Source: Gammaproteobacteria bacterium
GTDB taxonomy: Bacteria > Pseudomonadota > Gammaproteobacteria > Ga0077536
DNA: 64,000 bases
Assembly: GCA_016209015.1 (NCBI GenBank)
Contig: JACQWY010000060.1
Span: 1 to 64,000, forward strand
Reading direction: 5' to 3'
Shown here: in pieces, positions 39,209-53,107 of the stretch
Numbering within the stretch: position 1 is the first letter of the stretch
How the letters are laid out: each line of letters begins with the position of its first letter
Notes under the pieces: generated by a model
The model's input: only the letters and a program-made list of their open reading frames with translations
The model's database searches: none
What the model was told of the DNA's origin: nothing
Program-made: the position numbers and the translations under genes

Positions 39209-39967
39209 ATGTACGAAATCGAGTCGGGCTCAATGTCGGAGGAATTCTTATCCTGCTGGACTGCGGCAGGGAACCACTTAAGCCGGCAAGTCGAAGGAGG
39301 CATCCAAAGTTGGCTCCGGGCGCATCCATACCCACCATTTCTCGAGCATCTGTCGTTTCGCTTAGGAAACCAGTTGTTCTTTGTTCGCATCGAGGACGTC
39401 GAGGGGAAGGTCATTGGTCCTGGGAGCTTAAGGGGGATAAAACTGGTCGCTAAAGAGACGAATGGACGTGCCTGTACTCTGCCGATGAAGAGGAATCTGA
39501 TTAATCAGAACTGGGCTGCAGACCGGCCCGGCTGGGGGCTACTGGATGCTGAGACCGGAGACCCGCTGAACCCGATCGATCTCGTTTCAGCTATGAACAT
39601 CGAGATGAGCACGTGGGAGGTCCAGGATATGGCCGTACAGGTAGTGCGCGACTATATCGGTGGGCAGGGATTCCAATTAATGTCATGGCAAGCAAATCCA
39701 GCGGTCGACCCTTCGATCTGGTTTCTTGGAAAGTCGAGGAACCCTGAATGGGTCATAGTGCGAACCGCGAAATATCCCGCGAACCGCGCTGAGAGGCCAG
39801 GAAACTGGAACGAGATCGCTCAAGCTTGCGCGCGACTTGGTACAGTTGGGCACTTCGCGTCTGTAGCAATCGTCAGCGCTGCGCAGCCTTTTCGTTCGAG
39901 AGTCGAAGCGCCACTCCCGCTATGGCGAGGCCACGGGATGCATGTGAACTTTTCAGGGCTGGAATGA
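39209..39967 (+). CDS. Unknown protein at the island start
   Basis: 252 aa, soluble, family not recognised. N-terminal region: YEIESGSMSEEFLSCW and SWLRAHPYPPFLEHLSFRLG; C-terminal region: DPSIWFLGKSRNPEWVIVRT. The middle includes VQVVRDYIGGQGFQLMSWQ, and the IWFLG...WVIVR strand pair with acidic surroundings vaguely suggests a nuclease-like fold, but I do not claim it. ATG at 39209 after GGGGAGG. Codon use is visibly less GC-biased than in the flanking genes, pointing to horizontal transfer. Confidence 0.65.
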   Translation: MYEIESGSMSEEFLSCWTAAGNHLSRQVEGGIQSWLRAHPYPPFLEHLSFRLGNQLFFVRIEDVEGKVIGPGSLRGIKLVAKETNGRACTLPMKRNLINQNWAADRPGWGLLDAETGDPLNPIDLVSAMNIEMSTWEVQDMAVQVVRDYIGGQGFQLMSWQANPAVDPSIWFLGKSRNPEWVIVRTAKYPANRAERPGNWNEIAQACARLGTVGHFASVAIVSAAQPFRSRVEAPLPLWRGHGMHVNFSGLE

Positions 39968-40059
39968 GTAACACTGCTCCTCTTCCCACGTGTGTTGGCG
40001 ATCAGATCGACATCCGGCTCTAGCCGGTCTCATGGCGGAATATGAAGTGTGGACTGCTG

Positions 40060-40100
40060 CCGGATTCACGGACACCGAGTTGAGGTGTCCGTGAATCCGG
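40060..40100. repeat. Perfect 17-bp inverted repeat with a 7-base loop
   Basis: The arm CCGGATTCACGGACACC (40060-40076) and its exact reverse complement (40084-40100) flank GAGTTGA. A partial repeat GGTGTCC follows at 40102-40108, directly before a transposase-like ATG. It may be two insertion-sequence ends left tail to tail, or a strong transcription barrier. Confidence 0.75.
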
Positions 40101-40109
40101 AGGTGTCCC

Positions 40110-40190
40110 ATGGCGAGAAGAATGTTTAGGCGCAAGTATAAGCTAGACGAGTTACGGTTAGTGGGCCAATTCTATGCCCTCATCCGGTGA
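40110..40190 (+). pseudogene. Remnant of an IS3-type transposase OrfA
   Basis: A 26-codon frame beginning MARRMFRRKYKLDELRLV and stopping soon after. It matches the usual N-terminus of IS3-family OrfA proteins (MARRxFTxEFKxEAVRLV) with changes, and is preceded by IS-end-like repeats. No further transposase sequence follows. Confidence 0.5.
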
Positions 40191-40212
40191 AAGAAGTAGC
40201 GGGAGCCTTTGA

Positions 40213-41262
40213 GTGAGTATCGAGTTCGGGAGTCTCCGTGTTGACCTCGGTATCTGTGGTCGTTGGACGGAGCAAGGCCAGTTCACGGTGACCATCGGTC
40301 CCGAGCCGCTGGCGGCATTGACTCGCCACGTCGAGGCTGGAAGTCGGGTGTACGAGCTTTTCGCGATCAAGCGGCCAGGTGACCTATGGAATTATCTGAC
40401 CGTTACGGCGGTGAGCCTGCCGAAGGATGTACAAGCTCGATTCGAAAAGGCGCTGAGCCGCATCGATAAGTCGCTCCGCAGTAGGCGGCGCAAGTATCCG
40501 CACAGGAATCGATTGCCCTATTTGCAATTCGACTCGCTTTTCTTCTATGGCGATCCGGACGAAGACGATACTGCCGATCGGAGATGGGACCGATATCGCC
40601 ATTCACCGCCAATGAAGGATTTCCTCCACAGTACATTCGAGAAGATTTCGGCTTTCCAACGTGAGGTCCCAGCGCGCGATGCGCTATTTGCCTACGAAGT
40701 CGAAGGGCTGCGTGCCTTTACGCACCTGTACGACGATGTGCCCAGAGAGAAATGGCTTGATCTATGTCGCAAGCACGCGCCTGGATGGCCCCCGCACACC
40801 GAGGCGTTTTACTCGAAGCTTCAAGAGCTACTTGCTGTCAGGGCTGTTCACTCGGTTCGTTATCGCGGCTGGGGTGACCATTACATTCATCGGATGATGT
40901 GCCTCGAGCAGCGACTGCGCGCCGACAAGGGCAACTTGCGACCGCGTTTCGCGATGTACTTATGTTCCCTCGGCGGACACAGTAACTCGCAACCCTGGGG
41001 TGCCGAACTATGGTACTTCGAAGAGGGGCTTGGGCCTGGCGAACTGTTCATTGAAGACCACTGCCTCGGCGCATCCGTGCGGGATCTCATTGCCATGGGA
41101 CGGGCGGAATGTAACTTCGTCCTGTCGAACACTGATCAAGGTGAAATCCCAGGGTATACCGTCGATGCGGGGGACGGGTACTTCCTCTATGAGAAGGCAG
41201 AGAAAATCAACGTCGCCGTTTTGCCGCAGCTGGTAGAAGAGCGAGTTCGTTGTCGTGGATGA
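40213..41262 (+). CDS. Unknown protein coupled to a sirtuin gene
   Basis: 349 aa, soluble, no family recognised. Distinct blocks are VTIGPEPLAALTRHVEAGSR, YLQFDSLFFYGDPDEDDTAD, WGDHYIHRMMCLEQRLR and CSLGGHSNSQPWGAELWYF. The GTG at 40213 follows GGGAG. The stop overlaps the start of the sirtuin gene by 8 bp, so the two are translated together and probably act together. Composition and codon use differ from the chromosomal background. Confidence 0.7.
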   Translation: MSIEFGSLRVDLGICGRWTEQGQFTVTIGPEPLAALTRHVEAGSRVYELFAIKRPGDLWNYLTVTAVSLPKDVQARFEKALSRIDKSLRSRRRKYPHRNRLPYLQFDSLFFYGDPDEDDTADRRWDRYRHSPPMKDFLHSTFEKISAFQREVPARDALFAYEVEGLRAFTHLYDDVPREKWLDLCRKHAPGWPPHTEAFYSKLQELLAVRAVHSVRYRGWGDHYIHRMMCLEQRLRADKGNLRPRFAMYLCSLGGHSNSQPWGAELWYFEEGLGPGELFIEDHCLGASVRDLIAMGRAECNFVLSNTDQGEIPGYTVDAGDGYFLYEKAEKINVAVLPQLVEERVRCRG

Positions 41263-42124
41263 CAGCTTTGACGGTGCGGTGCTCGCCGAAAGTTTCCGAA
41301 AGGCTGCGGAGCTGATTGCAAACTCCGAAGCGCTGGTCATCGCTGCGGGCGCCGGAATGATTGCAGATTCGGAGCGCCCCGGATTCTTAACCCCGCAAGA
41401 AATATGGAAGGCGTATTCCGAACGCCAAAGCTCGCGTCTGCAGTTTAGTGATATCGCAGGGCCTGCTGCGTTCGCCCGCGATCCTTACTTGGCATGGGGC
41501 GTTTACGGGCAGTGCTTGAACCTCTATCGCGAGGCTCAGCCACACGTGGAGTTCGCGCTGCTGAGGATGGTCGGCGCTCGTGCCAAGCATGGCACATTCG
41601 TCTACACCAGCAATGTGGACGGAGCCTTCCAGAAGGCGGGATTCGCGGGGAATCGGGTGGTGGAATGTCACGGGTCAATCCACTGTTTCCAATGTACGAG
41701 CAATTGCATAGATGGGATCTGGAGTGCTGACAAATTCTTTCCGGTGGTCGACGTCCAGCAATGCCGATTGATTTCCAAGGTTCCTCTATGTCCGAGATGC
41801 GGCGCGGTTGCTCGGCCGAACATTCTTATGCTCAATGACTGGGAATGGCGTTCCATCCTTCCCGAAATGCAAGAGGAGCGGCTCTACGACTGGGTGAACG
41901 AGATTGAGCGGCCGACGGTGATTGAGATAGGTGCCGATGACGCGATCCCGACCGTTCGCAATTTCGCTGAATCGCTCGATGGGCCGATAATCCGAATCAG
42001 CCCAGAAATCAGTGCGGACTACGATTCCAGCATTATCAAGGTTCAAGCTTCGGCACTTACCGGAATGCAGGGCATCAGCCGCGTCCTGCTCGAGGAGATT
42101 TGGGACGGAGAAATCGAAGTCTAG
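41255..42124 (+). CDS. Sirtuin (Sir2-family) NAD-dependent protein
   Basis: 289 aa. The NAD-binding GAGMIADSERPGF (about residues 30-42) corresponds to the usual GAGxSxxSGxPxFR with changes; TSNVDGAFQKAGF replaces TQNIDxLHxxAG; the catalytic histidine is in VVECHGSIHCFQC. Two Cys pairs (CFQC and CPRC) form the expected zinc site, and RPNILMLND follows. It is therefore deacylase-like rather than one of the zinc-free defence Sir2 domains, although several consensus positions are altered. GTG start at 41255, overlapping the upstream gene by 8 bp. Confidence 0.85.
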   Translation: MDDSFDGAVLAESFRKAAELIANSEALVIAAGAGMIADSERPGFLTPQEIWKAYSERQSSRLQFSDIAGPAAFARDPYLAWGVYGQCLNLYREAQPHVEFALLRMVGARAKHGTFVYTSNVDGAFQKAGFAGNRVVECHGSIHCFQCTSNCIDGIWSADKFFPVVDVQQCRLISKVPLCPRCGAVARPNILMLNDWEWRSILPEMQEERLYDWVNEIERPTVIEIGADDAIPTVRNFAESLDGPIIRISPEISADYDSSIIKVQASALTGMQGISRVLLEEIWDGEIEV

Positions 42125-42602
42125 GCCGGGGTGAGCAACGCGGGTCGATCTGAGCCCGGAAGTCCGACCGCGATCGTCGCCGATAAGTGAAAAGTCGCGA
42201 CTTCCCGCAAAAGGACGGTCTGGCCTGAATCGGCGCCCATTGCCGGCGCTTTTCGGATATAGCGGATGGTCCATCCGTCGCAGGCTATTTGCCCGCCACC
42301 GCTCTCTGCAGGTTTGCGCAGCGAACCGACCCGGAGTCGTAATTAGCCCAATCGAAGCTGCGGCCACCCGCGTCCATCCCTAAAGCGATCCGCTATCTGT
42401 CTCTTCCACTAGTAGATCACGCTTTTCTACATCTTGCATTTCGTCAGCACCTACCGGCGGATAGGCAGCGCGGCCGCTTCCGAATTGTGCCCTCGCTTCG
42501 CTCACTAACGCATGGAGGCGACCCAGATTACGCGAAAGATCGGAGAATCCGCCCTGAGTACCCCGAAACTGCTCTGCCGACGGCTAAGGATACGCGCTCA
42601 GA
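42125..42602. other. Intergenic region inside the island
   Basis: About 480 bp with no supported gene. Open frames on the minus strand lack ribosome sites and recognisable sequence. It may be decayed coding DNA. Confidence 0.4.
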
Positions 42603-43625
42603 ATGTCGCTGGTACCATCTAAAAAGAACGATCAGGTATTTCAGCTATCGTTAACGGAGCTCGCGTTTACGCTCGTTTTTCTGTTGCTGCTACTCGCCGG
42701 ACTAATGGTTCATCACGAAAAGCGAAGCGCAGATGGCGAGAGGAGGCGGGCTGAGCAGCAGAGGCAAGTAGCGTTAGCCGAGCAGGCGAAACTGCGCGAG
42801 GCCGTTCGAACATCGCAGGAGCTAAGTCGACTGCGCGACGATTCGGAGAAAGCGGTGGCAGAACTCAAGGCGCTGCTACCTCAGAGCGCCGTTAATCCAG
42901 ATGCAATTATCTCCGACTTGCGGAAGTGCAGCGCTAAAGATACCGAGATTCGCCGCCTTCAAGCAGCAGTCGCGGATCTGGAGGAGAAGCTCACTGCGCT
43001 CGTTGCGGTTGCGGCTTTGGTGAAGAAAGCGGGTGCGGACACAGCAAAGGCGACTGTCGGGCGAGAGGTTGCGACGGCGTTAGCTTTTAAGAAGGGATAC
43101 GAAGACGCGCGAAATGGCCCCATTCAGGGTGGTGAAGGATTCGACCGAGGAAAATCCTGCGGAGTGTCCGAGAATCGGCTGAGCGACCTTACAAAAGAAG
43201 CGCAGAATTTGAGAGGACAACTCACGAATATGATCAAACAAGCGGAGGGCACCAAAAACTCGAAGGGCTTTGGTTTGCCGCCGTGCTGGGTTGACGAATC
43301 GGGTAAAGTTCAGCGACTGCTGGATGTCGAAGTCACCGATGGTGGCTTAATCGTTCGCGCTGGATGGCCACCAGAACGTAACGGGGATTCAAAGGCTGTG
43401 CCTGGTGTTGAAGCGCTTACGTCAACTGATTCGGAAGAAACTATTGCGGCATTTCGCGGTGCAGCGGACTCCGTGTACGCGTGGAGCCGAGGGCAAGACC
43501 CCGAGTGTCGCCACTACGCATCTGTAACGGTCTCAGCCACTAAAGTTCAATCGGCCGTGACCGGCAAGAATGCGGTATACGATTACTTTTACCCGTATGG
43601 TCGGGAAGCGCTCGCGAAACCGTAA
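42603..43625 (+). CDS. Membrane-anchored coiled-coil protein of unknown function
   Basis: 340 aa. One membrane helix at residues about 16-37 (LTELAFTLVFLLLLLAGLMV), then a long coiled coil about 40-140 with many Glu, Arg, Lys and Ala, then a globular C-terminus with PPCWVDESGKVQRLLDVEV and ECRHYASVTVSATKVQSAV. The N-terminal plan recalls MotB/TolR/ZorB-type proteins, but no OmpA-like peptidoglycan-binding domain is visible and no MotA-like partner is adjacent. ATG at 42603 with AAGGA upstream. Last gene of the atypical-composition island. Confidence 0.7.
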   Translation: MSLVPSKKNDQVFQLSLTELAFTLVFLLLLLAGLMVHHEKRSADGERRRAEQQRQVALAEQAKLREAVRTSQELSRLRDDSEKAVAELKALLPQSAVNPDAIISDLRKCSAKDTEIRRLQAAVADLEEKLTALVAVAALVKKAGADTAKATVGREVATALAFKKGYEDARNGPIQGGEGFDRGKSCGVSENRLSDLTKEAQNLRGQLTNMIKQAEGTKNSKGFGLPPCWVDESGKVQRLLDVEVTDGGLIVRAGWPPERNGDSKAVPGVEALTSTDSEETIAAFRGAADSVYAWSRGQDPECRHYASVTVSATKVQSAVTGKNAVYDYFYPYGREALAKP

Positions 43626-44172: not shown

Positions 44173-44511
44173 TCAGCGCGTCGTGCCCGAGCCCGTCTCG
44201 CCCGCCGTGCCGCTCGTGCGCGCGCCGGCGCCGCCGCAATCCGGCGCGCCGCTCCTCGCGCGCGACGTGCCGCGGCCGCAGTTCGTCGCGCCTTCACCGG
44301 TCGACGAGCCCGGGTTGCCGCTGTCGTAACCGCCGGTCGACGTGCCGGTCGAGGTGCCGCTGCCGTAGCTGCCGCCGGTATCCGAGCTCGTGCCGCTGCC
44401 GGATCCCATTCCGGCGCCCGAGCCCGAACCCGATCCCGTGCCGGCGCTCTGCGCGCAGGCCACGCCGCTCGTGGCGGCGAGCACCGCAATCAGACAAAGC
44501 TTCTCGAACAT
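44173..44511 (-). CDS. Small exported Gly/Ser/Thr-rich protein
   Basis: 112 aa. Signal peptide 1-20 (MFEKLCLIAVLAATSGVACA), then a low-complexity region built of GSGSG, GTSTG and similar units and a tail with two cysteines (TNCGRG and PDCGGAG). No domain is recognised. It could be a flexible surface or periplasmic filler. A precursor role for the radical SAM enzymes 1.4 kb away is only a thought. ATG at 44511 with GGAG upstream. Confidence 0.65.
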   Translation of the reverse strand: MFEKLCLIAVLAATSGVACAQSAGTGSGSGSGAGMGSGSGTSSDTGGSYGSGTSTGTSTGGYDSGNPGSSTGEGATNCGRGTSRARSGAPDCGGAGARTSGTAGETGSGTTR

Positions 44512-45802: not shown

Positions 45803-45926
45803 GAGTCGGAGATCTCTGTGCTGTGGCCCGCGGGCGGGCGCCAAGCATAGGGTGGGGCGTGCGGCGCGTCAAAGCGCGTGGCCGGTGCCCTTGTCCGCGC
45901 GGCGCAGGCACCGAATAATCCGGCCC

Positions 45927-47939
45927 ATGGCTTCCGTCACGCTGATCTATCCGCCGGCAACCGAGCCGCGTGCGCCGCACCTGCCCTTGCCCGCGCTCGC
46001 GGCCCATCTGCGCGGCCAGGGCATCGCGACGCGTCTGCTCGATCTCGATTGCGACGGCCTGCGCGCGCTGCTGCGGCCGGAAGCCCTCGTCGCGGCCGGC
46101 GCCCGGCTCGCGCGTCGCGGCGCTGCGGTCGAGCCCCGCTTGCGCCATGCGGCCGAACGGCTGCCGGAAGTGATCGGCGGCGCGCTCGCCTGTTTCGACG
46201 AGCGGGCGCGGTTCCTCGCGGCGAACGATCGCCTCGCCGCTTATCATCATCTGCTCGATGCCTGCGCCGTGCAGTCCGCGGCCTCGCCCGGCGGCGCGAG
46301 CTGGTCGATCCATCCCATGCACTACGACGTCGCCGGCATCGACGGCGCGAAGTTCGCGGACCTCGTGCGCGTGAGCGCCGAGCCGGCCGCGAATCTCTTC
46401 CACGACTACTGGGAGACCGAGGTGCTGCCGGCGATCGATCGCGAAGCGCCGACGCTCGTCGGGATCTCGCTCGCTTGCCGTCAGCAGACGATCCCGGCGC
46501 TCATGCTCGCGCGGCGACTGCGGGCGCGCGGCCATTACGTCGTGCTCGGCGGCACGTTCATCGCGCGCTTCGTCGAGACGCTGCAGGGGCTGCCGGTGTT
46601 CTTCGGTCTGTTCGCCGACGCCGTCGTGCCCTACGAGGGGGAGTCGGCGCTCGTCGAGCTCGTGACCCAGCTCGAGGGCGGGCGCGATCTCGCGCGCGTG
46701 CCGAACCTGCTCTACCGCGATGGCGCGCAGGTGCGCGCGACGCGCATTCACGTCGAGAACGTCGCGACCCTGCCGACGCCGGATTTCACGGGCCTGCCGC
46801 TCGACCGCTATCTCACGCCCGATCCCGTCCTGCCCTTCCTGTTCGGCAAAGGCTGCTACTACGACGCCTGTCGCTTCTGCGAATCGGCCTACATCAACCG
46901 CGTCGCGAAGAAGCGTTACCGCCTGCGGACCGTGGAGCGCGTGGTGGAGGACGTCCTCACGCTCGCGGATCGTCACGGCGCGCGCCACTTCACGGTCGCC
47001 GACGAGGCCGCGCCGCCGAAGCTGCTCGCGGAGTTCGCGGATCGCCTGCTCGCGGTGGGGCGCGAGGATCTCGCGTTCGAGACCTATGCACGCTTCGAGC
47101 GCGGCTTCACGACGCCCGTGCTCGAGAAGCTCGCGCGGGCCGGCGTGAAGCGCTTCTTCTTCGGGCTCGAGTCCTACGACCAGCCGAGCCTCGATGCGAT
47201 GGAGAAGGGCACGCGGCTCGAGGACGTCGCGCCGCTGCTCGATCGCTGCGACGCCGCCGGCATCCGTTACCACGTCTTCGGACTCGCCGGCGTGCCGGGT
47301 CAGTCGCGTGCGGCGATCGAGCGCACGATGGCCTTCTTCCGCGAGCCGCGCTTCGCGACGCCCGGCAACGGCTTCGACGTCCAGCCGATGCAGATCCACC
47401 TGCGCTCGCCGTACGGGCGCGAGCTCGACGCGTTGCCCGTGGAATTCGATCGCACGCTGCTCGCGCGCGAGTTCGTGCACGGCCTCGGCACGGCGTGGAC
47501 GAGCACGCAGGGCGCGGATCGCGCCGCAGTCACGGCCGCGCTCGGCGACTTCCAGACGGCGCTCGCGGATCCGGCCTGGCCCGCGCCGTTCTTCTTCCTG
47601 TGGCCGATGAAGGAGAGCTGGAGCGTGTATTACGCCGGCACTTACGATCGCACGCGCTTTCCCTGGCCCGTCGCCATGCCGGAGGCCGCGGTCTGGGACG
47701 GCTACACGCTGCGCGTCGCCGATAGCACGGTGACGTGGACCGAGGCCGGTCGCGTGCAGCTCGCCTCGCGCCACGGTGGGATCGCACTCGAGGCCCCGGC
47801 CTACGAGACGATGCGTACGCTCGCCGGGCAGACGCTCGCGGACTGGGTGGCCGCATTCGGCGGCGCGGCGTCGGGCGTCGCGACCGCGCTCGCGGCGCTC
47901 GTCCAGCGTCAGATCCTGCGCCTCGATCCGCGGCGCTGA
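45927..47939 (+). CDS. B12-binding-type radical SAM protein
   Basis: 670 aa. The N-terminus resembles a cobalamin-binding domain (LIYPPATEPRAPHLPLPALA, then an AHLRGQG helix and strand LLDLD). The radical SAM cluster motif is GCYYDACRFC with Cys310, Cys315 and Cys318; the four-residue first spacing is common in B12-radical SAM enzymes. The barrel continues with FETYARFERGF, KRFFFGLESYDQ and YHVFGLAGVPGQ. Related enzymes methylate unreactive carbons or modify peptides. First gene of an operon whose second member starts 4 bp after its stop. ATG at 45927. Substrate unknown. Confidence 0.82.
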   Translation: MASVTLIYPPATEPRAPHLPLPALAAHLRGQGIATRLLDLDCDGLRALLRPEALVAAGARLARRGAAVEPRLRHAAERLPEVIGGALACFDERARFLAANDRLAAYHHLLDACAVQSAASPGGASWSIHPMHYDVAGIDGAKFADLVRVSAEPAANLFHDYWETEVLPAIDREAPTLVGISLACRQQTIPALMLARRLRARGHYVVLGGTFIARFVETLQGLPVFFGLFADAVVPYEGESALVELVTQLEGGRDLARVPNLLYRDGAQVRATRIHVENVATLPTPDFTGLPLDRYLTPDPVLPFLFGKGCYYDACRFCESAYINRVAKKRYRLRTVERVVEDVLTLADRHGARHFTVADEAAPPKLLAEFADRLLAVGREDLAFETYARFERGFTTPVLEKLARAGVKRFFFGLESYDQPSLDAMEKGTRLEDVAPLLDRCDAAGIRYHVFGLAGVPGQSRAAIERTMAFFREPRFATPGNGFDVQPMQIHLRSPYGRELDALPVEFDRTLLAREFVHGLGTAWTSTQGADRAAVTAALGDFQTALADPAWPAPFFFLWPMKESWSVYYAGTYDRTRFPWPVAMPEAAVWDGYTLRVADSTVTWTEAGRVQLASRHGGIALEAPAYETMRTLAGQTLADWVAAFGGAASGVATALAALVQRQILRLDPRR

Positions 47940-47943
47940 GCCG

Positions 47944-49332
47944 ATGTTGTACGTGCCCACCCCGGAAACCACGTCGCAGGCCGACACCGCGGCGATCTAC
48001 ACGACCGCGGATCTGCAGTACCTCGACACGCCGCTCGGCACGCTCGCCGTCCACGCCCCGCGCGGCGGCTGGGCCTATGTCGACGCGGACGAGCTCGCGT
48101 TGTTGCGCGCGCTCGCGGCCGGCGACGCGCTGCCCGCGAGCGACGACCGCGCAGCGAAGCTCGCCGCGCTGTGGACGCGCGGCCTCGTCGCGGCCGACGG
48201 GCGCTGGGCGCGCGAGCCGGGACCGTCGCCGGCTGCAGGGCAGGAGGTGTTCTCGCTCGCGATGCTGCTCTCCACGGGTTGCAATCTCGCCTGCACGTAT
48301 TGCTATCTCGGCCACGACAACCCCGCCGGCTGGCGGCACGCGACGCGCGACGAGGCGCTCGCGGCGATCGATGCCGTGCGCGCGCGCGGTCATGCGGTGA
48401 CCGTCGTCGATCTCGGCGAGGTCGCGCCGATCGGTGACCTGTGGCGCGAGATCGTGCTCGCGCTGCGCGAACGTCCGCTCGAAGCGAGCCGTCAGCTGCG
48501 CGTGCTCGTCCAGACGAATGCGACGACGCTCGACGAGGACGACTGCGCGTTCTGCGCGGCGCACGGGATTTCCGTGGGTGTGAGTCTCGACGGCCCGGCC
48601 GCCGTGCACGATGCGGCGCGCGTCTTCCGTGACGGACGCGGCTCGCACGCCCGCGTCACGCGCGTGCTCGGCTCGCTCGCCGCGCACGGCGTGCCGCACT
48701 GGACGATCGCGACCGTCGGCCGGCACAACGTAGAGTTGCCGGAGCAGGTGATCGAGGCGCTCGCCGCGTTTCCCGCGGCGCCCTATGCGCTGAAGCCCAT
48801 CCTGCCCGCGGGTGCGGCCGGTGCGGATTGGGAGACGCTCGGCATCTCCGCCGCCGCGTACGCGGCCTTCCTGCGCCGCGCGATCCGCCACGGCCTGACG
48901 CGCGATCCGCCGCGCCTCGATCTCACCTCGCGGCAGTTCCTCGCGCGGATCCTCGGGCGCCCGGACGGCTGGGTGAAATCCTGCACCTCGCGCCGTTGCG
49001 GCTGCGGGGAGACGCGGCTCGTGTACGAAGCGGGCGGTCACTGGACGCCGTGTCCGCGCTTCGGCGAATACGGCGTGCGCACGGCGACGCCCGAAACGAT
49101 TCCGGCCCTCGCGCTGCCGGTCTGGAGCCGCGCGCTGCCCGCGGCGTGCAGCGCCTGTGCCTGGCAGAGCGCCTGCGGCGGCGGCTGCGCGCTGTCCGGC
49201 CCCGACGATCCGCACTGCCTCGCCTACCGCGCGCACTTCGAGGCCTTGTTCGAGGACGTTCTGCCCGCGGCCGCCGCGGACCCCGCGCTCGGCGAGGCGG
49301 TGTTCGGCGGTCTCGAGCTCGCGCGCGGCTGA
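47944..49332 (+). CDS. Radical SAM protein with SPASM-like C-terminal cysteines
   Basis: 462 aa. N-terminal domain of about 100 residues, possibly a peptide-recognition-like fold. Core motif STGCNLACTYCYLGHD with Cys113, Cys117 and Cys120. The C-terminal region has CTSRRCGCG (from about residue 347), TPCPRFGEYG and CSACAWQSACGGGCA, a cysteine set like the SPASM/twitch clusters of peptide-modifying enzymes and anSMEs. It starts 4 bp after the B12-type enzyme, so the two should work on the same substrate. No clear precursor peptide lies inside the operon. Confidence 0.82.
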   Translation: MLYVPTPETTSQADTAAIYTTADLQYLDTPLGTLAVHAPRGGWAYVDADELALLRALAAGDALPASDDRAAKLAALWTRGLVAADGRWAREPGPSPAAGQEVFSLAMLLSTGCNLACTYCYLGHDNPAGWRHATRDEALAAIDAVRARGHAVTVVDLGEVAPIGDLWREIVLALRERPLEASRQLRVLVQTNATTLDEDDCAFCAAHGISVGVSLDGPAAVHDAARVFRDGRGSHARVTRVLGSLAAHGVPHWTIATVGRHNVELPEQVIEALAAFPAAPYALKPILPAGAAGADWETLGISAAAYAAFLRRAIRHGLTRDPPRLDLTSRQFLARILGRPDGWVKSCTSRRCGCGETRLVYEAGGHWTPCPRFGEYGVRTATPETIPALALPVWSRALPAACSACAWQSACGGGCALSGPDDPHCLAYRAHFEALFEDVLPAAAADPALGEAVFGGLELARG

Positions 49333-49377
49333 GTGCGGCACGTCGCTGCAACGAGGCCGCTGTCATGGCGTCGCGCC

Positions 49378-49923
49378 ATGCCCACCCGTGCCTGCCTCGC
49401 CGTCTCCGGGCTGCTCGCCGCGGGCGCCGCGTCCGCCGGCTGGCACGGCGAGCACACGGCGAGCCGCCTCGATTTCGTCGCACGCTTCATGGGCGACGCC
49501 GTGCCCGGGCGCTTCACGGATTTCGACGTCGCGCTCAGCGGCGAGGCCGCCGCCGGCGCGCAGCTCGTCGTGAGCGTGCGCACCGCGGGCGCGGTCTTCG
49601 ACAGCGCCGAAGTCACGGCCGCCGTGCGCGACGCAGCGTGGTTCGACGTCGCGCAGTTTCCGGAAGCACGCTACGAGGCTGCGCTCGAAGCGCGCGGCGG
49701 CGGGCGCTTCCTCGCGCACGGCACGCTCGCGCTGAAAGGCGTGCAGCGCGCGCTCGAGATTCCGATCACCTGGCGGGAGCAGGCGGACGGCGCGCACCTC
49801 GTCGGCGAATTCGCAGTCGAGCGCGGCTGGTTCGGCATCGGTACCGGCTCGTTCGAGGCGACGGACGAAGTCGCCGCCGAAGTGCGCGTCAGCTTCGACG
49901 TGCGGCTGCGTCGCGATGAGTGA
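49378..49923 (+). CDS. Exported YceI-like protein
   Basis: 181 aa with signal peptide (LAVSGLLAAGAASA, then GWHGEHTAS). The body has the YceI lipocalin-like pattern: SRLDFVARFMGDAVPGRF, FDSAEVTAAVRDAAWFDV, FPEARYEA, and GTLALKGVQRALEIPITW. YceI proteins bind polyisoprenoids in a hydrophobic pocket. ATG at 49378. The stop overlaps the next gene by 8 bp. Confidence 0.82.
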   Translation: MPTRACLAVSGLLAAGAASAGWHGEHTASRLDFVARFMGDAVPGRFTDFDVALSGEAAAGAQLVVSVRTAGAVFDSAEVTAAVRDAAWFDVAQFPEARYEAALEARGGGRFLAHGTLALKGVQRALEIPITWREQADGAHLVGEFAVERGWFGIGTGSFEATDEVAAEVRVSFDVRLRRDE

Positions 49924-50611
49924 GCGTGGCGTACGGCGGTGGACGATCGCGGCCGTGCTGCTGCTCACGGCCTGCGCGCCGACGCAGCGCGCGCCGTCGC
50001 TTGCGCCGGCCGCGCGCCCCGAGGGCTTCCCGACGCAGCAGTACCTCGAGGCCGCCGCGCGCGGCGAGGCCGTCTATATGCTCGAACCCGGCAACTCGCT
50101 CGCCGTCGCGACCGTGCGCCGCAGCGGCCCGCTCGCGAAGCTCGGCCACGATCACGTCGTCGCGAGCCATGCCTTGAACGGTTACGTCAGGCCCGCCGCC
50201 GGCGTCGGCGATCTCTACGTGCCGCTCGCGGATCTCGACGTCGATGCAGCGGAGCTGCGGCGCGACGCGGGCCTCGACACGACGCCGAGCGCGGCCGACA
50301 TCGCGGGCACGGCGAAGAATCTGCAGGAGAAAGTGCTCGCGACGGATCGTCATCCCTATGCGATCGTGCATTTCGAACGACGGGCCGCGGATACGCTGCA
50401 GCTCACGATGATCCTGAACGGCGTCGCACACGAGTACACGGTCGCGGCGCGCATCGACGTCGCGGCAGAGGAGCTCGCCGCCGAGGGCCGCTTCGAGGTG
50501 AAGCAGACGGATTTCGGCATCACGCCGTTCGCGATTCTCGGCGGCGGGCTGCGGGTGGAAGACGCGATCGCGATGCGCTTCGTGGTGAAGGCACATCGGA
50601 TCGCGGAGTGA
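49916..50611 (+). CDS. YceI-like lipoprotein
   Basis: 231 aa. Lipobox LLTAC with the modified Cys near residue 20 places it in the outer membrane. The body is a divergent YceI-type barrel: GPLAKLGHDHVVASHALNG, YVPLADLDVDAAELRR, HPYAIVHFERR and TDFGITPFAILGGGLRVED. Overlaps the upstream YceI gene by 8 bp and ends the operon. A pair of periplasmic lipid-binding proteins after two radical SAM enzymes suggests a modified lipid or a lipid-linked product. Confidence 0.82.
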   Translation: MSERGVRRWTIAAVLLLTACAPTQRAPSLAPAARPEGFPTQQYLEAAARGEAVYMLEPGNSLAVATVRRSGPLAKLGHDHVVASHALNGYVRPAAGVGDLYVPLADLDVDAAELRRDAGLDTTPSAADIAGTAKNLQEKVLATDRHPYAIVHFERRAADTLQLTMILNGVAHEYTVAARIDVAAEELAAEGRFEVKQTDFGITPFAILGGGLRVEDAIAMRFVVKAHRIAE

Positions 50612-50991: not shown

Positions 50992-51800
50992 TCAGCGGCG
51001 GTGATAGACACGGTAGTCGATGATGCGGCCCGCGACTTCCTTCGCGACGATCGCGATCGTCTCGTGCTCGCGCCCGTCTTTCGGCCGCCCGATCGTCAGG
51101 TGATAGCGCGAGGGGGTGCCGGCGAGCTTGCGCTTCGTCGCGCCGGCGCGCGCCGCGGTTCCGCCCTTCACCTTGTAGGCGACGAAAGTCTCGTCCGCGC
51201 CGAGCCCGCTCTTGCGCGCGATGTTCGCGAGCGCCGCGCGGACGTTCGCCGAGCTGCGCCTGCCGCGTTCGGGGGTCGCGGCCGTCGGTTTCGTCTCCTG
51301 CAGGAAGCGGCCCGTCGCGGCGAGCTTCGCGCGCCGCTCGCGACGCCGGAAGCGATCCGCCGCTGCGCGATCCGCGAGCTTCGGGCGGGCGGGTGCGGCC
51401 GCGGCGACCGGCACGACGGCCGGATCGCCGAGGAGGTTGAACTGCGCGAGCGTCTTCAGATCGATCGGATCCATCTGCGCAGTATGCGCGACGAACTGCT
51501 GGCGTGCCGTCAGCGCGGCGCGCCCGAGCGAGGCCCCGCCGAGCACGGCCTGCAGGAAGTACTGGCACAGCAGATCCGCCGCGCCGTTGTCGTCGGCGGG
51601 CCCGTAGGCGATCGTCGTGCTGCCGAGATAGCCGTAGCAGCCCTGGCGCAGATAGCTCTGGCTGATCGGAATGTCGAGGCCGAGCGTCACGGAATCGTAG
51701 AGCTGGCCGCCGTAGCAGCATTCCGTCGCGGCGACGGTGCCTTTCGCGATCCTGCCGGCCGTCGTCGCCGTCGTGAGCGCCTTCGGGAACGACCGGCCGG
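50992..51800 (-). pseudogene. 5'-truncated cysteine-protease-like gene (C25/CHAT type)
   Basis: An open frame without a proper start: a stop at 51801-51803 lies at the edge of the RAYT repeats, and the sequence then reads KGTVAATECCYGGQLYDS, SYLRQGCYGYLGSTTIAYG and ADLLCQYFLQAVLGGASLG. A Cys followed by a small-residue stretch and a GSTTI strand is what one expects around the catalytic cysteine of gingipain- or caspase-like proteases. The upstream half with the histidine is missing. The C-terminal part is basic and repetitive. I judge it broken by the mobile element; a GTG at 51690 might still give a shorter product. Confidence 0.6.
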
Positions 51801-51823
51801 GTTATTCGGGGTCAGAGTCCAAT

Positions 51824-52567
51824 TCAATCGGGGTCAGAGTCCGTTAGCCAGTGGCTCAATTCGCCTGCTACGCCTGCCGGGGCATCGCGGCGCCGGCGCC
51901 CGGGCGAAGCAGGGGCGGTCCGGCGTTGGAGCGCGGTTTGCCATCGGTTGCGGGCACCCTCACTCCCCAGCACGACCTGCTGCGAGACGCAGCGGCGGAT
52001 CTCTTCGAGCGTGCCGTCTTCGAGCTGGGTGTCGAACAATTTCCGGTAAGCGACGCGCGTCGCGGCGGCGTCTCGACCGAGGGCGAGATACGTGGGGTGC
52101 GCGGTTACTAGCGAGTCATGCCTGCCTGCGGCGTTGGCGTGGAAGCTCGACCAGCGATACGCGCCGGGCACGTCCACGAGGCCCGCTCGTACGGAATTCA
52201 TTTCGATGTAGCGGTAGCAAGCGAGCAGATAATGATCGGAATCCACGAGCCCCGATTTGTAGCGGCCTTCCCACAAGGTGCCCGTCCGGCCGTGCCACGT
52301 ATTGAAGGCCCGGACGTATCGGCGTCCGAGGCATTGCATGAGATGAGAGACTCCTCCTGCTCGTTGAGGTGTGACGAGCAGGTGGACGTGATTACCCATC
52401 AAGGCATACGCGTGCAGCGCACATTCGCAGTGCGTCAACGCCTCGGCCAGATAGGAAAGGTAGCAACGATAGTCCCGCGGCTCATGAAAACAGGCCTGCT
52501 TGTCGTTGCCGCGTTGGACGACGTGCTGCGGCATCCCGGCGAGCGGGAAGCGAGGTAATCTTGCCAT
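51824..52567 (-). CDS. REP-associated-type tyrosine transposase, second family
   Basis: 247 aa, HUH motif in YALMGNHVHLLVTP and catalytic Tyr in YRYIEMNSVRAGLV; other landmarks are PQHVVQRGNDKQACF and RTGTLWEGRYKSGLV. It belongs to a different RAYT branch from the one at 189-719. The ATG at 52567 (MARLPRFPLAG) matches the family start, but the frame is open upstream without a stop into the NYN/PIN-like gene. The last residues (TDSDPD) and the stop are encoded by the element's own repeat. Confidence 0.88.
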   Translation of the reverse strand: MARLPRFPLAGMPQHVVQRGNDKQACFHEPRDYRCYLSYLAEALTHCECALHAYALMGNHVHLLVTPQRAGGVSHLMQCLGRRYVRAFNTWHGRTGTLWEGRYKSGLVDSDHYLLACYRYIEMNSVRAGLVDVPGAYRWSSFHANAAGRHDSLVTAHPTYLALGRDAAATRVAYRKLFDTQLEDGTLEEIRRCVSQQVVLGSEGARNRWQTALQRRTAPASPGRRRRDAPAGVAGELSHWLTDSDPD

Positions 52568-52641
52568 GGCGACACATCCTTGTGTTGCGAGCCGTGATTG
52601 TAATGCCAATTCGAGGTCGGTCCCAGCTCCCCGGGTGCTCT

Positions 52642-52751
52642 CGGACTCTGACCCCGAATGAATCGGACTCTGACCCCGAATGAATCGGACTCTGACCCCG
52701 AATGAATCGGACTCTGACCCCGAATGAATCGGACTCTGACCCCGAATGAAT
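52642..52751. repeat. Five tandem 22-bp repeats
   Basis: Exact tandem units each consisting of TCGGACTCTGACCCC plus GAATGAA, at 52642, 52664, 52686, 52708 and 52730. Two related units stand in the opposite orientation at 51805-51843. There are no spacers, so this is not CRISPR. Since 22 is not a multiple of three, successive units are read in different frames of the fused ORF. Confidence 0.95.
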
Positions 52752-53107
52752 ATGTCCGCGATCGTCGTCGAACGCTGCGCCCGTACGTGACGGGCGCGGA
52801 GATGTCTGACGAGCGGATCGAAGCCCGTGTCCTTCGAAATGACGTGGAAGTAGCCTGCCGAATCCTCGCTGCTCAGCCGGCCGATGTGATAGGCGATGTG
52901 GAAGTCGAGCGCGTTGTTCCCGGCGCTGTCGAGGAGGACGTGCTCGACACGGTCACCCAAGGGCTGCATCGCAGCGGCCACGTCGACAGCGACCTTCTTC
53001 TGGTTCGGGCCGAGAAACAGCATGACCTTGAAGTGGCCTTCCCTGAGCAGGCCGAAATCCTTGGGCTGCACGTTCTCGAAATCGACGAGGACGTAGTTCG
53101 TTCGCAT
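52752..53107 (-). pseudogene. 3'-truncated NYN/PIN-like nuclease gene fused to the transposase frame
   Basis: The first 119 codons encode a NYN/PIN-like domain: MRTNYVLVDFENVQPKDFGL, ALDFHIAYHIGRLSS and FHVISKDTGFDPLVRHL, with the acidic residues of the nuclease centre (VDFEN, LDFH, KDTGFD) retained. Family members normally continue well past the final IADI segment. Here the sequence enters the 22-bp repeats in frame and runs on into the transposase, giving one open frame of 427 codons. The domain core could therefore still be made, with an artificial tail. Confidence 0.75.

Follow-up and report, generated by a model that had tools for sequence, protein, structure and literature searches.

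Two radical SAM enzymes and two YceI lipocalins in one operon: a possible orphaned RiPP-type tailoring module

Described systems and the layout of the operon

Genome mining has located B12-binding radical SAM genes in the thioamidated RiPP families of Bradyrhizobium (PMC8120280). Bacterial lipocalins of the YceI family, BcnA and BcnB among them, have been studied in Burkholderia; hydrophobic antibiotics, such as the lipopeptide polymyxin B, are ligands of these proteins, and octaprenyl pyrophosphate was present in their crystals (PMC5350466). Lipocalin-b561 protection against lipid peroxyl radicals has also been described (PMC9113575). No report that joins YceI proteins with radical SAM enzymes or with lanthipeptides was present in the literature searched. 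The initial annotation of the present locus knew of no described system of this make-up, and the same literature did not contain the set.

The locus occupies positions 45927-50611 of the window, by which we mean the whole 64-kb stretch of DNA that was analysed. According to the ORF calls, it consists of four genes, all on the + strand, in the order rSAM1, rSAM2, YceI-1 and YceI-2. The first gene, rSAM1 (45927..47939; 670 aa), is separated by 4 bp from rSAM2 (47944..49332; 462 aa), which is followed after 45 bp by YceI-1 (49378..49923; 181 aa); the latter overlaps YceI-2 (49916..50611; 231 aa) by 8 bp. All four reading frames are intact and show coding-type third-position GC, as expected in a GC-rich genome. 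A sigma-70-like promoter candidate (45891..45919, + strand) lies directly 5' of rSAM1 and matches the consensus at 9 of 12 positions, a match to consensus only. Terminator-like sites are absent from the gene junctions of the operon, including the junction between the radical SAM and YceI halves. The four-gene make-up and its spacing are real and beyond chance, and ORF calls and Pfam agree with the two radical SAM genes, two YceI genes, 4-bp gap and 8-bp overlap first reported.

Several neighbouring features were recorded. Just downstream of the operon, on the - strand, lies a peptidase C25 remnant (50995-51801) in which just the final portion of the domain is left; at another locus (L123), a C25 peptidase gene immediately precedes a relative of rSAM2. 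Further on, a single ORF (51824-53107, - strand) combines a PIN7 domain with an IS200-like (Y1) transposase domain, with about five copies of a 22-bp tandem repeat (52641-52772) at the junction of the two. Upstream, the stretch 39209-43625 includes the GC minimum of the window (0.57 at 40-44 kb) and contains a SIR2-family gene (41255-42124) with uncharacterised neighbours; this region was considered as a defence system and set aside, PADLOC having returned no match for the SIR2 protein.

Enzyme classes and folds

In Pfam, rSAM1 matches Radical_SAM above the cut-off (6.9e-14), while its B12-binding score of 18.5 falls below the cut-off of 32.1. Its top NCBIfam family is TIGR03975, comprising C-methyltransferases of RiPP maturation, at 98.1 bits against a cut-off of 281.85 and hence below the level for membership. 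The cluster-binding cysteines C310, C315 and C318 are invariant in 13 sequences and are spaced Cx4Cx2C, an arrangement common to the relatives, in place of the usual Cx3Cx2C. A structure model built with 12 relatives (pLDDT 88.9) matches OxsB (Z 24.0), TsrM (Z 22.8), AprD4 and CysS, and the alignments with OxsB and TsrM run from residue 1 onward. By the fold of this model, rSAM1 is a cobalamin-dependent radical SAM enzyme with a predicted cobalamin-binding domain at its N-terminus. The C-terminus of the model (about residues 593-668) forms a beta3-alpha3 domain, whose three strands and three helices are laid out like leader-binding domains.

Radical_SAM is also matched by rSAM2 above the Pfam cut-off, and SPASM gives no Pfam match. 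The cysteines C113, C117 and C120 (Cx3Cx2C) and seven C-terminal, SPASM-type cysteines (C352, C370, C402, C405, C411, C415 and C425) align with those of 12 relatives; the cluster-binding cysteines are all kept in this enzyme as in rSAM1. The GGEP motif is absent, with LGEV in its place. The protein scores below the cut-off of every NCBIfam family listed, its best scores being with sulfatase and peptide maturases; for the anaerobic sulfatase maturase family TIGR03942 it reaches 92.1 bits against a cut-off of 349.45. Its model (pLDDT 68.8) matches the folds of anSME, ChlB, CteB, TigE, SkfB and SuiB, and judged by this model rSAM2 is a SPASM enzyme resembling peptide and protein maturases. At low to middling confidence, residues from about 24 to 78 are modelled as a beta3-alpha2 domain of PqqD-like layout, into which the structure alignments with CteB and TigE extend; one relative of rSAM2 (L087) matches PqqD weakly (E 0.15). 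Neither of the two RRE-like domains, in rSAM1 or in rSAM2, has a match in Pfam. The structure models bear out the B12-type and SPASM-like assignments of the initial annotation.

The other two genes encode ordinary bacterial lipocalins, scoring 68.5 bits (YceI-1) and 29.7 bits (YceI-2) with the YceI family PF04264, both above the cut-off of 23.7. YceI-1 has a signal-peptide-like N-terminus and YceI-2 carries the lipobox LLLTAC, in agreement with an exported YceI protein followed by a YceI lipoprotein, as had been proposed. The nearest solved structure to YceI-1 is 5ixh, a YceI-like protein that we take to be BcnB of Burkholderia.

Relatives of the two enzymes and the missing precursor

When about 85,000 genomes, one per species, were scanned for relatives of rSAM1, eight loci with 39-44% identity emerged, in three Bradyrhizobium, one Mesorhizobium, a gammaproteobacterial MAG, and MAGs of Pseudonocardia, Myxococcales and Acidimicrobiales. 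A further relative (42% identity) is encoded in the same genome as the window, on contig C65, within a full RiPP cluster. The loci resemble RiPP clusters and carry TfuA- and YcaO-type genes, pieces of LanB-type dehydratases and metallo-hydrolases, with an NHLM peptidase exporter in several; some of these gene names rest on reading sequences. A small gene ending in -T(V/I)MCPW is present in seven of the nine loci; of the other two, one (L076) has a related TIMCPG stretch and the other is a short contig. Nothing relevant to the -MCPW ending was found in the literature searched. The precursors at L073 (4441-4695) and L075 (136-393) still end in -T(V/I)MCPW although they have no Nif11-like leader, indicating stronger conservation of the C-terminal motif than of the leader.

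In a maximum-likelihood tree, rSAM1 falls in a 100/100 clade of 13 sequences, and the other 12 members are all found in RiPP clusters with YcaO-, TfuA- or LanB-type genes. The enzyme clearly descends from peptide-natural-product clusters. It is sister (99/99) to one of two Bradyrhizobium copies and not to the C65 relative from its own genome, and was therefore probably acquired separately. Among the 52 positions common to 12 of the 13 sequences, rSAM1 is the odd one at 20, compared with 0-8 for other members, and it has the longest end branch within the clade (1.0). This deviation suggests that its substrate may have changed or that constraint on it has relaxed. The clade itself, which extends over Pseudomonadota, Myxococcota and Actinomycetota, represents a little-studied group of B12-radical SAM enzymes tied to -T(V/I)MCPW precursors.

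The C65 cluster lies outside the window (L062, 12146-17031; L063, 298-14296). It contains an MBL-fold gene, the B12-radical SAM gene, a true TIGR03975 enzyme (498 bits), a YcaO gene, a TfuA-like ORF and an NHLM exporter, together with two Nif11-like precursors of 129-130 aa that end in STVMCPW.

Close relatives of rSAM2 were found neither in the genome-contig scan nor among 144 relatives, 369 genomes of the class, 398 genomes of the phylum and plasmids. The best plasmid match, from Paracoccus yeei, has 26.6% identity over 80% and lies beside an HEXXH peptide-modification gene. All matches to rSAM2 are distant, and transfer of context from them is therefore weak. The view that radical SAM pairs of this kind usually modify peptides is supported, as rSAM1 falls in a clade that our sample places exclusively in RiPP clusters and rSAM2 resembles peptide and protein maturases.

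Around the operon, the partners expected of such clusters are missing. A phmmer search found no Nif11-type precursor within the 64-kb window, and none of its six frames encodes a precursor ending in -MCPW; elsewhere in the genome, this ending is confined to the two precursors of C65. No YcaO, TfuA, LanB-type or NHLM export gene was seen near the operon in the gene content of the ORFs. Nif11 precursors of the same genome are located on contigs C65, C29, C39 and C32, and the operon enzymes might conceivably act on them in trans; those on C29 and C39, which have other neighbours, were considered as substrates and set aside as no more than possible. Two Nif11 precursors of this genome outside the C65 cluster (L091, 8002-9810; L092, 9154-10968) have as neighbours a GT41-type glycosyltransferase in one case and a 477-aa protein with no clear family in the other. 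An exported Gly/Ser-rich small protein with cysteines in its tail is encoded 1.4 kb upstream of the operon in the opposite orientation (44175-44511, - strand), and is a conceivable candidate substrate for the operon enzymes.

The four-gene set was not seen elsewhere in our sample. YceI genes are absent from every examined locus with a relative of rSAM1 or rSAM2, and none of these loci combines B12, SPASM and YceI genes. Two loci (L119 and L122) do have a B12-radical SAM gene within a few kb of a radical SAM gene matching the rSAM2 profile, but in unrelated settings, and were rejected as instances of the pairing. Among 36 genomes of the window's order and family, YceI-1 had no match, and the only match to rSAM1 outside its own genome was a C65-like copy (G025). 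In this sample the set is thus a singleton, and it was probably acquired horizontally. The initial annotation had asked whether radical SAM homologues ever neighbour YceI genes; that they do not in the examined loci speaks against a conserved four-gene pathway. The neighbourhood search for the four genes found relatives of the YceI proteins adjoining a cytochrome b561-like gene and not radical SAM genes.

Interpretation and comparison with known systems

We favour, with a probability of roughly 0.45, the reading of this operon as an orphaned RiPP-type tailoring module, in which a fast-diverging radical SAM pair shares an operon with two lipocalin genes. In such a module, rSAM1 would most likely C-methylate a peptide and rSAM2 may introduce a second change, a crosslink or other oxidation, while the predicted small winged-helix-like domains of both enzymes could hold the leader peptide. 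With no recognisable precursor encoded alongside, the substrate would have to be unlinked or unrecognised, and supplied in trans. The most likely task of the lipocalins would be periplasmic binding of the hydrophobic product or of some other hydrophobic compound; alternatively, they may serve in envelope protection. In favour of the module are the clade of rSAM1, the fold matches, the RRE-like domains in the models, the antibiotic binding of Burkholderia YceI lipocalins and the genome mining in Bradyrhizobium. Against it stand the missing precursor in the window and the missing cluster partners, the 20 of 52 changed positions in rSAM1, the lack of Pfam matches for the RRE-like domains and the absence of YceI from the loci of relatives. 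The more specific proposal, that a RiPP-derived pair, after rewiring, makes a modified peptide whose precursor is either unlinked or not recognised, and that dedicated periplasmic lipocalins capture the hydrophobic product, would be a RiPP system not described before, and we consider it doubtful.

In the main rival reading, the halves have separate functions and share a transcript by accident, a RiPP tailoring remnant standing beside a lipocalin system for quinone-like or oxidised lipids, like Burkholderia BcnA/LcoA. Relatives of YceI-1 and YceI-2 lie close together in one genome (G075), where a YceI-2 relative stands beside a YceI/cytochrome b561-like pair without radical SAM genes; conversely, no radical SAM relative has YceI nearby, the 45-bp gap between the halves contrasts with the tight coupling inside each half, and the literature describes lipocalin-b561 protection against lipid peroxyl radicals (PMC9113575). 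However, the halves lie on the same strand with a short gap and no terminator-like site between them, and no cytochrome b561-like gene was noticed among the ORFs adjoining the operon. Two accidentally joined modules are possible, but on the whole unlikely.

We regard as improbable a reading in which the operon, a horizontally acquired fragment, is decaying and has no present function. The long end branch and changed positions of rSAM1, the replacement of the GGEP box by LGEV in rSAM2, the missing precursor, the lack of the genes in relatives of the same family (except for one distant rSAM1 homologue) and, just downstream, the truncated C25 peptidase gene and the IS200-like gene would all fit decay, but all four genes have intact frames of coding-type composition and both enzymes keep all cluster-binding cysteines.

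Still more improbable is modification of the YceI proteins themselves by the radical SAM pair before export, in the manner of anaerobic sulfatase maturases, whose target is an exported protein from an adjacent gene. The best PDB matches of rSAM2 are to anSME both in sequence and in fold, and the putative targets belong to the same operon and are exported. However, rSAM2 falls well short of the anSME cut-off (92 of 349 bits), both YceI proteins have relatives that occur without radical SAM genes, neither YceI protein has a cysteine beyond the signal or lipobox region, and the clade of rSAM1 is tied to short precursors rather than proteins.

Least credible is the view that the pair acts, by methylation or rearrangement, on an isoprenoid-type lipid which the YceI proteins carry: relatives of these proteins bind polyprenyl compounds and rSAM1 has weak scores to the lipid B12-radical SAM families HpnJ, HpnR and ladderane, but these scores lie well under the cut-offs and do not reach that for the RiPP family TIGR03975 (98 bits), and the tree groups rSAM1 with RiPP-cluster enzymes. 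The modified lipid or lipid-carried peptide first suggested for the locus is supported only by the co-location of YceI genes, and these are absent from the examined loci of relatives.

On the lipocalin side, the operon resembles BcnA/BcnB in its exported YceI domains and in the closeness of YceI-1 to 5ixh among PDB entries; it differs in having no noticed cytochrome b561-like partner, in that one YceI protein is a lipoprotein and in the position of both YceI genes 3' of the radical SAM genes. If the four genes of the favoured tailoring module act together, lipocalins would be partners of a kind new to ribosomal peptide natural products, acting as carriers or in self-protection. The SPASM maturases (anSME, CteB, ChlB, SkfB, SuiB and PapB) share with rSAM2 the radical SAM core, the SPASM-type cysteine set and the fold, whereas rSAM2 is below all listed NCBIfam cut-offs and has LGEV for GGEP. 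The TIGR03975 C-methyltransferases, which are B12-radical SAM enzymes of RiPP pathways and the top NCBIfam family of rSAM1, form a separate branch, with rSAM1 below their cut-off and a true member in the C65 cluster. The Bradyrhizobium-type thioamidated RiPP clusters (PMC8120280) and the C65 cluster have neither rSAM2 nor YceI genes where examined, and differ from the operon in its lack of an adjoining precursor, YcaO, TfuA, LanB-type dehydratase and NHLM exporter, but they are like it in that their B12-radical SAM enzymes belong to the same clade as rSAM1, at 37-44% identity over near full length.
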